Shown here: positions 34,439-39,759 of the stretch, one piece after another | Position numbering within the stretch: the stretch's first letter is position 1 | Layout of the letters: every line of letters begins with the position of its first letter | From: Geothrix oryzisoli | GTDB lineage: Bacteria > Acidobacteriota > Holophagae > Holophagales > Holophagaceae | Direction of reading: 5' to 3' | DNA length: 64,000 bases | Assembly (NCBI RefSeq): GCF_022808865.1 | Contig: NZ_JAKZLB010000001.1 | Span: forward strand, 744,001-808,000 | Position numbers and translations under genes: made by a program | Notes under the pieces: generated by a model | Database searches by the model: none | What the model saw: the letters and a program-made list of their open reading frames with translations, nothing else | What the model was told of the DNA's origin: nothing

Positions 34439-34480
34439 ACGCATGAAAACGGCGGCCTGGCGGCCGCCGTTTTCATGCGT
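34439..34480. terminator. Bidirectional terminator between the E2 gene and dnaB
   Basis: A perfect 19-bp stem (foot ACGCATGAAAAC) with a TGGC loop. The dnaB stop codon TGA is inside the stem, so translation of dnaB runs into the hairpin. Confidence 0.85.
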
Positions 34481-35846
34481 AGGAGGACGTCTCCCGGACC
34501 ATTTCCCGGTACATCGCGTACTCGCCCTGGAAGTGCAGCTGGATGATCGCGGTGGGGCCGTTGCGGTGCTTGGCCACGATCAGCTCGGCTGAGGGATCGG
34601 GCTCTTCGTTGGCTGAGGGGATCATCTTCCGGTGGATGAAAGCCACCATGTCGGCGTCCTGCTCGATGGCACCCGAGTCGCGGAGGTCGCTGAGCTGCGG
34701 TCGGCCGCCAGTGCGGTGTTCCACTTCGCGGTTCAGCTGCGAGAGCACGACCACCGGTATGCCGAAGTCCTTCGCCATGAGCTTGAGGCCGCGGCTGATC
34801 TCGCCGATGCGGACGGCTTCGTTCTGCTTGGCGCCCCGGCTGTTCTCGGGGCTGCTGAGCAGCTGGAGGTAGTCGATGAGGACGAACTCCACCCGTCGAT
34901 TGCTCTGGCTGCCCTGCTTCACGATCATGTTCTGGATCTGGGGCACCGTGATCGAGGCCTGATCGCAGATGAACAGCGGCATCTGCACCAGCTCGTCCCG
35001 GGATCGCATCACATGATCCAGCCGCCCGGTGGCGCGGCCGGACTGGAGATCCTTCATGTTGGTCTGGCTCTGCGCGGCGAGCAGGCGCAGGAAGACCTCC
35101 TCGTGGCTCATTTCCAGGCTGAAGAAGGCGCCGCAATGACCCGGGCGGCCATCCCGCTCCTGGGCCGCGCGCAGGACCCAGTTCAGGGCCAGGGCCGTCT
35201 TGCCGATGCCCGGACGGGCCGCCAGCACGATGAGATTCCCCGGCTGGAAGCCCTGGGTCAGTTCGTCGAATCGCTGGAACCCGACCCGCACGCCCGGTGA
35301 CAGGCGTCCCTCCAGCCGCTCATGGAGGCGCTCCATGGCATCGTCCGCCACCGACTGGATGGAGAGCAGGCCCCGGGCCTTGGCATCGCCCTGGGCCAGG
35401 TGGAAGAGGCTCTGGGCGGTCTGGTCCACCAGCACTTCCGGTGGCTCATCCTCCTCTGCGGCCTGGCGCACCAGCTGGGCGCCCAAGTGGACGAGGCGAC
35501 GCAGCTTGGCCTTGCGGCGGATCAGGTCCGCCAGCACCTGGGGCCGCTCGACATCCTCGCCGGCCAGCAGCTCCACCAGGCCGGGATAACCGCCGACCTT
35601 GTTCAGGCTGTCGTCCTGATCCAGCGCATCCTTCAGGGTGAGGGAATTGACCTCGACCTGGGCTTCGATGAGGGTGCGCAGGGCCCGGAATACGGCGCGG
35701 TGGGCCGGATGGACGAAGTCGTCCTCCGCCAGGGCGAACACCGCCTCGCTGGCCACGAAGCCAGCGCCCGGGGCGCAGCATGTGGCCAGGAAGGACCGCT
35801 CCGCATCAATATCCTCCGGAAGGCGTTCCGGAAGCCAATCCGCCAT
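34473..35846 (-). CDS. dnaB: Replicative DNA helicase DnaB
   Basis: A 457-aa hexameric helicase that unwinds DNA at the fork. The N-terminal domain starts with L-P-E-D-I-D-A-E-R-S-F-L; the RecA-like C-terminal domain has Walker A A-R-P-G-I-G-K-T (about 210-217), F-F-S-L-E-M near 245, the V-L-I-D-Y-L-Q-L-L Walker B (about 328-336) and D-L-R-D-S-G-A-I-E-Q-D-A-D (about 391-403). No intein. Start ATG at 35846; a GTG at 35849 is possible. The stop lies in the terminator shared with the E2 gene. Confidence 0.96.
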   Translation of the reverse strand: MADWLPERLPEDIDAERSFLATCCAPGAGFVASEAVFALAEDDFVHPAHRAVFRALRTLIEAQVEVNSLTLKDALDQDDSLNKVGGYPGLVELLAGEDVERPQVLADLIRRKAKLRRLVHLGAQLVRQAAEEDEPPEVLVDQTAQSLFHLAQGDAKARGLLSIQSVADDAMERLHERLEGRLSPGVRVGFQRFDELTQGFQPGNLIVLAARPGIGKTALALNWVLRAAQERDGRPGHCGAFFSLEMSHEEVFLRLLAAQSQTNMKDLQSGRATGRLDHVMRSRDELVQMPLFICDQASITVPQIQNMIVKQGSQSNRRVEFVLIDYLQLLSSPENSRGAKQNEAVRIGEISRGLKLMAKDFGIPVVVLSQLNREVEHRTGGRPQLSDLRDSGAIEQDADMVAFIHRKMIPSANEEPDPSAELIVAKHRNGPTAIIQLHFQGEYAMYREMVRETSSYA

Positions 35847-35861
35847 CACTGCACCGTCCGT

Positions 35862-38800
35862 TCAGAGTCCCGGAGGAGTGTACCCCCCGCCGTCCACATC
35901 CACAAAGACCGGGTTGGTGACTGCGACGGGATAGATGCCCTTCATGATCTTGTTCCAGGGCGTGCCGGCCTGGTACGCCCCCGTCGTGGCCAGAGGGACG
36001 CCGGCCTCGACCACCACCCAGGCGTCCTTGCCGGTAGGCATCGCCACGCCACTGAGGGTCGCGGTGCGCAGCAGGAAGTCGGAGGTGGAGGCGGTGAAGC
36101 TGCTCATGGGCACCACCTGGGCCACGCCGTTCACCACCACACGGACCTCGTCCACCGGCACCCAATCCGCCGCATAGAGCGAGATGGTGAGGGTGACGGT
36201 GGCCGCAGGGCCGGGCACCAGGCCCCCGGGTCCCACGCCATTGACGGTCACATCAAGCAGGGGGCCGGTGGAGGCCACGGCGGCACCACTGCGAAGGGCG
36301 GCCAACACTGGGTCGAGCGTCGTCTGCGTCAGCTTGGCTCCCACCTTGAGGTAGGTCCGGGCCAGGCCCACGGGGGTGTCGAAACTGAACCGCGCGGCGG
36401 AGAGGCCCAGCCCCTTGGTGAAAGCGGTCGGCTGCTGCTGGCTCAACAGCGAGAACCAGTCGCTCCGCACAGCCTTGAACTCGGCGAACCAGGCGCTGGG
36501 ATCCGCCGAGTCACAGCCCTCGGCCCGAAGCAGTTCCAGGGCGTCGAAATCCCCCTGACGCTTGGTCAGGCTCACGGGTCCGGTCTGGGTCCACCAGGCA
36601 TTGACCCCAGTCCCGATCGGCACTGCCGGATCGAACCCGCGCACGGTGAACAGCCCCTGGGGGCCCCGCGGCCGGTGGACGATGGTATAGGCGCCCTCCG
36701 ACTGGGTGATGAAATCCGCCAGGGTCCAACCCTTGGAGGGACGGGCCCCGCCATTGCGGTTGCCCGTGGGGGCCGGGGTGAACAGCGCCGTGACGAAGCC
36801 ATCCCCAAGCGTCGAGCTGCGCGCACCCACCACGAAGGGGTCATTGCCGATGGGCGCCCGCTGGGCGTCCGAGACGGCGAGGTTGTCGATCTCCGAACGG
36901 AATTCATCCCGCAGCGCGACGGGGTCCGTCAGCCGGTCCTCTTCGGTGCGGGCGACGGTCTGCACCCCTTCCGCCAGGGCCGAACTGAGCATTTCCCCTG
37001 GGTTCAACCCGCCGGTGGTCGCCTGGGTGGGGCCGGGGACATCGAAGGTGGTCCAGCCCGCCGGCAGGGTCGGCGGAATGGTCACGAAGGTGTGGGCCAC
37101 ATCCGCCTGCCCCTGGAAGGACTTCACCGGCAGGGCATCCAGGTGGGACAGGGGCCCACGGGTGCCGTAGGCGAGATAATCACCGGGGGGGAAATAGGCC
37201 GTGGCCGCCCCGCCGATATACCGGAAGGCGGTCCCGAAGATCTGGTTCCCGGCCGTGTACTGATAGGAGCCGAGGTTGGCACCGGCGAAGTCCTTGGCCT
37301 TCAGAACCTGGTTGTAGTACCCCGCCAGGCTGCGCCTCCGCTTCATGGATGGGTCCGGAATCCCGCCCAGGGCCGAGAGGGTGATGCGGAGGGGGTTCAT
37401 CCCCCCCAGTTCCAGGGTCCCCGCCTGCCGGGCCATGAAGTTGTGGATCAGCTCTTTCTGCTGGATCACGTTGCCGGAGGTGTCCACCACGTCGGCGCGT
37501 TCAGGGCTGAGGCTCTCGGCCAAGTGCCAGGCCTGGTCCTTCGACGGCGTGATGGGCGTCGCCAGATAGGGGCGGTTGGTGTCCGCGGCATTCGTACCGA
37601 GGTAGAGCGTATGGCTCTGGATGGCATTGGTGGCGGTCACCCGGTACGGCTGGGTGTGCCCGGTTCCCCGGGCATCGGGCACAGCCGGCAACAGGATTCC
37701 GAGGGCCCCGCCGCCGGAGGGGATGTCGCTGGCTTCGCGCCACTCCACCCGTTCCGTCACCCAGTGGGAGGGATCCGCATCCGTGGCCGGGTCGGCGTTC
37801 AGGCCGGTATAGCGCTCGAACCGGAACTCGGTCTGCCTGGGGCCGAAACGCGCGGCCGTTCCGAAGGAATCGTAGGCCAGGACACCAAAATCCCCGCCCC
37901 GGAGGCCCGTTCGCGCCTGGACCATCTCGTTGAAGACCGAGGTGGCCTGGGCCGGCTGGGTGGCCGAGATGCTGGGCCCGCCCACCAGGTACAGCCGCCG
38001 CCGGTAGGTCAGGGACTGCCCAGCGGGGAGGCTGGCCACCGCAGGACTGCCCACCACCAGCCGGCCCGGGAAGCTGGGGCGGACCTCGGTGAGCGCGTGC
38101 TGGGGGTCGGAAGCCACCAGCACCTGATCCACATCCAGGGGCAGGATGCCCAGCGTGGCATGTTCATCCAGGGTATTCCCCGCGGACTCGGAGCCCATCA
38201 GGGCCACCATGGGGGCCACCACACTCGTGGTCAGTGGCGCCGAGAAGTCCGAACCGGGGATCTCCGCACCCCAGCTGCTGAGGGGCGTGCCCGTGAAGGT
38301 GGACACCGCCGGCACCACGAACCGGAACCCGCCACCGTGCTGGGACAGGAAATCCCCAATGCTCCGGATGGGAAGCGCCGTGGTGCCGCCGTTGGTGATG
38401 GTGGTCTCCAGGGTGAAGAAGGTGTCGGCCTTGGTCAGGGAGATCCGGTGGAGGACGCTGACGCCCTGCACCCGCCCCTGGGTATCGGTGGCCACGCCCA
38501 GCTTGCCCCCGGGGTCCAGCAGGTAGCCCTGCATTTCCAGATCCACCAGGTTCACGCCGGTGCCGGGGGTGTAGCGGTCGAAGACCAGGGGCAGATCCGG
38601 GTCCTGGTTGGCCACGGGTCCCAGGCGTTCCACCAGGTCCGTGGGCATGGACACCCGCTTGTAGTTCTGGTCGAGGGACACATTGCCCACATCCAGGATG
38701 GCGCCACCCGAGGGGGCGCCGAACTGGCCTTCCCGGTCACCGAAGGCCGCCCCGTCCACTGCGAGCTGCACAGCATCATTGCCGAGGTAGAAGTCCCCCG

Positions 38801-39008
38801 GCCCGGAGGTGGCCTTCAGGCCGACCAGCCGGTCGCCGCCAGAAGCCGGGATCTCCTCCACCGCCACGGTGGGCCGGGCCACACCCGTGGCCCGGAAGCA
38901 GCCCAACCCGCCCGCGGCCAGGACCATGGCCAGGGGGGCCAGGAGCCCCTGCAGACGGCGGGAAGACAGACGGGCGGGAAGGACTTCGGGATCAAGGCTC
39001 ATGTTCAT
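35862..39008 (-). CDS. Large secreted CehA/McbA-like protein with degenerate PHP metal sites
   Basis: A 1048-aa secreted protein or lipoprotein (signal ending G-L-G-C, Cys37). I recognise the architecture of CehA/McbA-type PHP metallohydrolases: a long N-terminal beta region, then a PHP-like section from about 650 and a C-terminal beta sandwich with S-G-A-A-V-A-S-T-G-P-L-L-D-V-T-V-N-G and N-P-V-F-V-D-V-D-G-G-G-Y. In active enzymes D-x-H-x-H, T-D-H-N/D and S-D-x-H bind metal. Here they read D656-V-P-G-P660, T688-E-E-D691 and S870-A-A-R873, so every His is lost. It is probably not a hydrolase. The start at 39008 is preceded only by GAGAC; 39002 and 39038 are alternatives. It diverges from the sanA-like gene. 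Confidence 0.6.
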   Translation of the reverse strand: MNMSLDPEVLPARLSSRRLQGLLAPLAMVLAAGGLGCFRATGVARPTVAVEEIPASGGDRLVGLKATSGPGDFYLGNDAVQLAVDGAAFGDREGQFGAPSGGAILDVGNVSLDQNYKRVSMPTDLVERLGPVANQDPDLPLVFDRYTPGTGVNLVDLEMQGYLLDPGGKLGVATDTQGRVQGVSVLHRISLTKADTFFTLETTITNGGTTALPIRSIGDFLSQHGGGFRFVVPAVSTFTGTPLSSWGAEIPGSDFSAPLTTSVVAPMVALMGSESAGNTLDEHATLGILPLDVDQVLVASDPQHALTEVRPSFPGRLVVGSPAVASLPAGQSLTYRRRLYLVGGPSISATQPAQATSVFNEMVQARTGLRGGDFGVLAYDSFGTAARFGPRQTEFRFERYTGLNADPATDADPSHWVTERVEWREASDIPSGGGALGILLPAVPDARGTGHTQPYRVTATNAIQSHTLYLGTNAADTNRPYLATPITPSKDQAWHLAESLSPERADVVDTSGNVIQQKELIHNFMARQAGTLELGGMNPLRITLSALGGIPDPSMKRRRSLAGYYNQVLKAKDFAGANLGSYQYTAGNQIFGTAFRYIGGAATAYFPPGDYLAYGTRGPLSHLDALPVKSFQGQADVAHTFVTIPPTLPAGWTTFDVPGPTQATTGGLNPGEMLSSALAEGVQTVARTEEDRLTDPVALRDEFRSEIDNLAVSDAQRAPIGNDPFVVGARSSTLGDGFVTALFTPAPTGNRNGGARPSKGWTLADFITQSEGAYTIVHRPRGPQGLFTVRGFDPAVPIGTGVNAWWTQTGPVSLTKRQGDFDALELLRAEGCDSADPSAWFAEFKAVRSDWFSLLSQQQPTAFTKGLGLSAARFSFDTPVGLARTYLKVGAKLTQTTLDPVLAALRSGAAVASTGPLLDVTVNGVGPGGLVPGPAATVTLTISLYAADWVPVDEVRVVVNGVAQVVPMSSFTASTSDFLLRTATLSGVAMPTGKDAWVVVEAGVPLATTGAYQAGTPWNKIMKGIYPVAVTNPVFVDVDGGGYTPPGL

Positions 39009-39075
39009 CAAGGCGTCTCGTTCAGGCGGGAGGTCCATGGGGCTGGGGCGTGCGGAAGGTCTATGCTAACTCACG

Positions 39076-39759
39076 ATGCCGATCTCCGCCCTTCTTCATC
39101 GCTGCTGGCCGCACCGACGGACCCTGCTCCTGATCCTGGCGCTTCCCCTCCTGGGAGACTTGCTCTGGACTCTGGGAAGGTTCCCAGCCCTGCACCACCA
39201 GCAAATCTACCGGGCTGAGGCCCTTCCGGCGGTGGGCGGGCCGGTGCTGGTCCTGGGTGCCGGCGTGTACGGAGACGGGGAACCGACCGAACTCCTCCAG
39301 GGCCGGCTCCGCACGGCCCTGAATCTCTACCAGAACGGAAAGGTCCGCTGGTTCCTGGTGTCCGGCGACAACCGGCACCCTTCCTACAACGAACCCCAGG
39401 CCATGCGGCGCTGGCTGGTGAAGCAGGGGGTCCCGCCCACCCGCATCGTCAGCGACTACGCAGGCCTCCGGACCTGGAACAGCCTCAAGCGGGCCCAGGC
39501 TGTCTTTGGCCAGCGGCAGGTGGTCATCGTCACCTCGGATTTCCACCTGCCCCGCGCCCTCTACCTGGCCGATCGCATCGGGATCCAGGCCTGGGGCGTC
39601 CCGGCCTCCACCGAGGACCGCCCTCCCGTGAACCGGATCCGGTATTGGCTCCGCGAGTACGTGGCCCGGCACCTGGCCCTGTGGGATGCCTGGTTCCCGC
39701 CGGATGTCCGGCTGGGCCCCCGCGAACCGACCCCCGACGACTGGGATCCTGCTTCATGA
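39076..39759 (+). CDS. SanA/YdcF family protein (DUF218)
   Basis: A 227-aa protein with one N-terminal membrane segment (about 15-33) and a DUF218 domain. Family marks: V-L-G-A-G-V (about 59-64), L-V-S-G-D-N (about 93-98), Y-N-E-P-Q-A-M (about 102-108) and V-T-S-D-F-H-L-P-R-A (about 150-159). SanA of enterobacteria affects the envelope barrier to vancomycin. The stop overlaps the thiolase start (ATGA). Biochemical role unknown. Confidence 0.88.
   Translation: MPISALLHRCWPHRRTLLLILALPLLGDLLWTLGRFPALHHQQIYRAEALPAVGGPVLVLGAGVYGDGEPTELLQGRLRTALNLYQNGKVRWFLVSGDNRHPSYNEPQAMRRWLVKQGVPPTRIVSDYAGLRTWNSLKRAQAVFGQRQVVIVTSDFHLPRALYLADRIGIQAWGVPASTEDRPPVNRIRYWLREYVARHLALWDAWFPPDVRLGPREPTPDDWDPAS

Follow-up and report, generated by a model that had tools for sequence, protein, structure and literature searches.

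Loss of activity in metal-binding PHP domains has precedents. The PHP domain of E. coli DNA polymerase III alpha is an inactive variant with a demonstrated structural role (PMC3666897). Across inactive PHP domains of Pol III, a lost metal ligand is most often replaced by Arg, and the residues neighbouring the ligands are conserved (PMC3666897). The first-pass annotation of the locus described below spoke of a new class of pseudo-hydrolase; given this precedent, the wording was too strong. In our literature search, no paper on inactive CehA/McbA proteins was found, nor a description of a secreted inactive PHP protein of the CehA/McbA branch.

Herein, we describe a probable case of such a protein from Geothrix oryzisoli, a member of the class Holophagae. 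The window, i.e., the whole stretch of 64,000 nucleotides that was analysed, contains a gene of 1048 codons plus stop on the minus strand (35862..39008), a strand that the first-pass annotation had left unstated. Some relatives have an in-frame ATG further upstream, at 39038, and the commoner start is 39008 (MNMS). The N-terminus carries a lipoprotein signal peptide (38898..39008, minus strand) identified by its sequence pattern: it reads ...AAGGLGC37-FRATG, with a hydrophobic stretch ahead of the lipobox ...GGLGC and its lipidated Cys37. All 73 Holophagae sequences that reach this region have Cys37, and all of these orthologues read C-[FY]-[RH]-x-[ST] at the lipobox. By this pattern the product is a bacterial lipoprotein. 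The earlier description called it secreted; lipoprotein is the better term in view of the lipobox Cys37. In the Holophagae proteins, Phe or Tyr follows the lipidated Cys. In E. coli, Phe or Tyr at this +2 position sends a lipoprotein to the outer membrane, a rule taken from that species which may not hold in Acidobacteriota. An antisense open frame of 1298 amino acids (35322-39218, plus strand) spans the whole gene. The longest stop-free stretch opposite the gene measured 780-2514 bp in 12 relatives, and the frame looks like a by-product of high GC content rather than a gene.

An AlphaFold2 model was computed from a Holophagae-only alignment. Since all intact, His-bearing relatives were left out of that alignment, the barrel in the model was not imposed by them. 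The model of the whole chain had a pLDDT of 89.6, and that of residues 596-1048 one of 91.9. When the model of residues 596-1048 was compared with solved structures, the nine best matches were all PHP structures (Z 10.0-16.1), and the next match had a Z of only 6.7. The nine were 3e38 (16.1), 2anu (15.6), EndoQ (12.9 and 12.8), RNase AM (12.3 and 12.1), PsfC (11.7), 3e0f (11.7) and 2yb1 (10.0). The PHP barrel occupies residues 652-922 (36243..37055, minus strand). It is followed by a C-terminal beta domain, residues 935-1036 (35901..36206, minus strand), which ends in the NP[IV]FVD motif. At the other end of the chain, residues 47-345 (37974..38870, minus strand) form a galactose-mutarotase-like beta super-sandwich, assigned by fold comparison alone: against 4bze, 233 residues were aligned with a Z of 16.4, an rmsd of 3.7 and 11% identity. 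Searches of the PDB by sequence or profile with the Holophagae protein returned nothing. The PHP layout proposed in the first-pass annotation was thus recovered by structure prediction and comparison with solved folds, and the prediction lacking a PHP barrel that it had named as counterevidence did not materialise.

Next, we compared the protein with the CehA/McbA family. The NCBIfam model NF038032 matched residues 877-1037 with 57.9 bits (1.1e-15), a match that covers only model positions 183-315, the C-terminal half of the model. The curated cut-off of this model is 80 bits, and the window protein stays below it, as do most of the Holophagae proteins; the intact relatives score 130-160 bits across the full model. 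Relatives outside Holophagae occur in Myxococcota, Poribacteria and other Acidobacteriota; they have the same domains and can be aligned with the protein end to end. The motif STGPLLDV (residues 913-920; 36249..36272, minus strand) is common to the intact relatives. By sequence, domain layout and tree, the protein descends from the CehA/McbA family. It should be called CehA/McbA-derived by descent and, judging from the cut-off and the motifs, not a metallohydrolase.

The metal ligand columns were read against 30 intact relatives, 17 from other Acidobacteriota classes and 13 from outside Acidobacteriota or unplaced. All 30 have H658, H660, H690, H779, D871 and H873, while 28 have D666 and 29 have H738. 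The window protein shows clear replacements in eight of the nine PHP ligand columns. The D-x-H-x-H site reads DVPGP (656-660; 37029..37043), with H658P and H660P; the third ligand is replaced by Gly666 (37011..37013); the T-D-H-N site reads TEED (688-691; 36936..36947), with H690E; the next two ligands, Glu and His, fall in residues 723-738 (36795..36842), with H738F; the N-H-P-R site reads HRPR (778-781; 36666..36677), with H779R; and the S-D-x-H site reads SAAR (870-873; 36390..36401), with D871A and H873R (all minus strand). The ninth column, E723D, lies in a poorly aligning loop; it mostly reads Asp, and its alignment is uncertain. None of the motifs HxH, T[DE]H, NHP and SDxH is left. The first-pass annotation had located DVPGP, TEED, SAAR, STGPLLDV and NPVFVDV (1032-1038) at their correct positions; the alignment confirms where it placed the three metal motifs and that each has lost its ligands, and adds D666, H738 and H779 to the losses.

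The same loss was found across the class. Among 76 Holophagae sequences, H658, H660, H690, H779, D871 and H873 are absent, except for a single His779 (L064), which is the only His at any of the six His sites; the three motif sites are therefore consistently non-His, a point on which the first-pass annotation had made its reading depend. Some residues around the ligands were kept: D656 (76/76), P780, R781, D850, S/T870 and R884 are also conserved in the intact relatives and are probably structural. Glu825 (36534..36536, minus strand), a conserved residue that is not a ligand, is retained in most orthologues. No His that could supply a substitute metal site is conserved class-wide in the 76 sequences, and intact His ligands elsewhere in the chain, which the first-pass annotation would have counted against itself, were thus not found. 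Two candidates for such a site were rejected. His 187, 283, 522, 639 and 778, conserved in Holophagaceae, are not shared by the other two families; and the idea that the NHP His has moved to position 778 fails since 778 is His in only 47/60 Holophagaceae and His is not among its commonest letters in the other families.

Orthologues are present in 90 of 93 Holophagae genomes, normally as one copy, and in all 60 good genomes (completeness >=90%, contamination <=5%) as a single copy. The gene is missing from a 0.9-Mb genome (84% complete) and from a genus represented by two genomes (71% and 89% complete), in which a real loss is possible. Two Holophagaceae genomes of 1.2 Mb (G215 and G329; genus g19, e.g., L102), about one third of the usual size and apparently reduced, keep the gene next to dnaB. 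In a maximum-likelihood tree of residues 600-1040, computed with the motif columns left out, with 27 Holophagae rows and no root inferred, all Holophagae form one clade (branch 99/96), and a single change between intact and ligand-less states is needed. That change was a loss and not a gain, because the other relatives, like PHP proteins in general, have intact ligands. Across eight Geothrix genes, dN/dS was 0.18 over the full length and 0.14 for the PHP domain, values that are rough as synonymous differences are high. A dN/dS of ~0.18 means purifying selection, and the gene is not decaying.

The gene lies 12 bases upstream of dnaB (34473..35849, minus strand), its same-strand neighbour throughout Holophagaceae, and no terminator was found between the two in the window. 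On the other side, a divergent DUF218 (YdcF/ElyC-like) gene (39076..39759, plus strand) is the neighbour in those Holophagaceae loci that reach it. Proteins related to DUF218 (YdcF/ElyC-like) help to build the envelope of other bacteria, and this neighbour hints weakly at an envelope role. Different genes follow in the other two families (L120 7916-9919, L133-L135). In one of them (f2), a gene that resembles GH57 glycosidases by eye follows immediately downstream and overlaps the gene end, and in most loci a glgC-like gene comes after it. In the third (f3), a MutS-like gene lies downstream of the pseudo-hydrolase gene. Synteny comparison found no neighbour family common to all three Holophagae families, and no partner can be named because dnaB and DUF218 are not shared with the other two.

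A full-length CehA/McbA match above the cut-off is absent from most Holophagae genomes, including that of the window. About nine genomes do have a match above it, one of them partial. Full-length matches occur in a few Holophagaceae, at L175 (G152:C19), G344:C785 and G345:C58 with 186-239 bits, and at L174 and L176. At L174-L176, HxH and HP are kept and the letters at the TDH and SDxH sites differ, which means that the NF038032 model also covers partly altered sites. A pseudoenzyme guarding an active paralogue was considered and rejected: most genomes have no such paralogue, so the protein is not simply the partner of one.

Our reading, to which we assign a probability of roughly 0.8, is that the protein is an envelope lipoprotein derived from a CehA/McbA-type metallohydrolase which lost its ligands once and now serves as a structural or binding module. 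On this reading, the starting point was a secreted PHP metallohydrolase of the CehA/McbA type. Its metal ligands were lost in the last ancestor shared by all Holophagae, and each descendant family kept the barrel and flanking beta domains. Computation shows the fold, the loss and its single origin, the presence nearly throughout the class and the purifying selection. The present protein would bind no metal and perform no PHP chemistry, and would serve the outer envelope as a structural or binding module. The mutarotase-like sandwich would be the likeliest part to face a ligand or glycan, with the dead barrel acting as a scaffold. With catalytic residues lost in all orthologues and the fold kept under selection, the protein has the hallmarks of a pseudoenzyme. 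The first-pass annotation had suggested a deliberate non-enzymatic role; a non-catalytic role is indeed likely because the His are replaced, the loss is class-wide and purifying selection acts on the gene. A further-reaching proposition, which we regard as tentative and rather doubtful, is that the metal site was stripped once at the class root and the product became a single-copy lipoprotein of the envelope that the class cannot do without and that even 1.2-Mb genomes retain; its new function would be structural, binding or catalytic without metal.

One rival reading takes up the ligand binding on the outer surface that the first-pass annotation had in mind: a specific pocket would have formed out of the old active site. 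The lipobox is consistent with a surface location, and in Holophagaceae the first site is indeed fixed as W-x-x-F-D-x-P-[GA]-P-[ST], with Pro at 658 in 60/60 and Pro at 660 in 59/60 sequences. However, the other two families have different letters here (FDPxxxT and ADFxxxS/T), and a new pocket shared across the class is not supported, because the replacements differ between the three families. Of the remaining columns in Holophagaceae, 666 is Gly in 60/60 and 779 is Arg in 49/60 sequences, and several vary even within the family: 690 (E, Q and others), 738 (F/T/V), 871 (S/A) and 873 (R/K/L). Regional averages had suggested extra conservation of the former site, a suggestion that a shift test within the PHP domain overturned: the surroundings of the ligand sites were matched in conservation in 54 of 320 shifts and the ligand positions themselves in 135 of 320, so conservation beyond the rest of the domain was not significant. 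The fold is maintained with no sign of a new shared role for the old site, and we consider such a pocket unlikely.

Less likely again is that the protein is still an enzyme, working without metal through acids of the barrel (D656, E689, D691, E825) or through the mutarotase-like domain. D656, D850, E680 and E1001 are conserved class-wide, E825 is present in 57/60 Holophagaceae, and the sandwich resembles aldose mutarotases. Against this, D656 is equally invariant in the intact relatives, so it is likely structural, and E825 is Gln in 7/16 sequences of the other families. Still, the conserved D656, D850, R781, R884 and, for the most part, E825 may leave room for other chemistry in the barrel.

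A decaying pseudogene or annotation artefact, as the lost ligands and the long antisense frame might suggest, is hardly conceivable given full-length open frames in nearly all genomes, the low dN/dS, the single copy in 60/60 good genomes and its retention in two 1.2-Mb genomes. Equally little credence can be given to a chance resemblance of motifs in a protein that is not PHP, for which a Pfam search of the 1048-aa protein without a match and the sub-threshold NF038032 score would speak, since PHP structures took the first nine places in the fold comparison and the protein aligns end to end with intact relatives.

Apparently, the fold of an ancient enzyme persists here for a purpose other than metal-dependent hydrolysis. 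As an example of an enzyme that became a non-enzyme, the Holophagae protein is a clean one: the node can be dated, nearly all descendants have the gene, normally in single copy, and intact relatives are at hand for comparison. It also points to a core protein of the envelope in a class of metal-reducing bacteria and bacteria of soil and sediment, and automatic labels of "CehA/McbA metallohydrolase" on these orthologues are likely wrong about activity.

How does the protein compare with the described systems? Its sandwich shares the fold of the galactose mutarotase-like 4bze, the fold alone having been compared, and differs in being fused to a PHP barrel. The best fold matches of the barrel, the structural-genomics PHP structures 3e38 (BVU_3505) and 2anu (TM0559), are, unlike it, annotated as predicted metal-dependent phosphoesterases. 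With the long secreted CehA/McbA forms of Myxococcota, Poribacteria and other Acidobacteriota, it shares the N-terminal sandwich, the barrel, the STGP and PR motifs and the C-terminal beta domain with its NP[IV]FVD end; in these forms, by contrast, the ligands of HxH, T[DE]H, NHP and SDxH are intact and the family scores high. The PHP domain of Pol III alpha likewise kept its fold and the neighbours of its ligands after ligand loss, and the Arg or Lys at 779 and 873 in Holophagae matches the Arg among its replacements. Unlike the Holophagae lipoprotein, it retains four of the nine ligands, is cytoplasmic and fused to a polymerase, and belongs to another branch of the PHP proteins.
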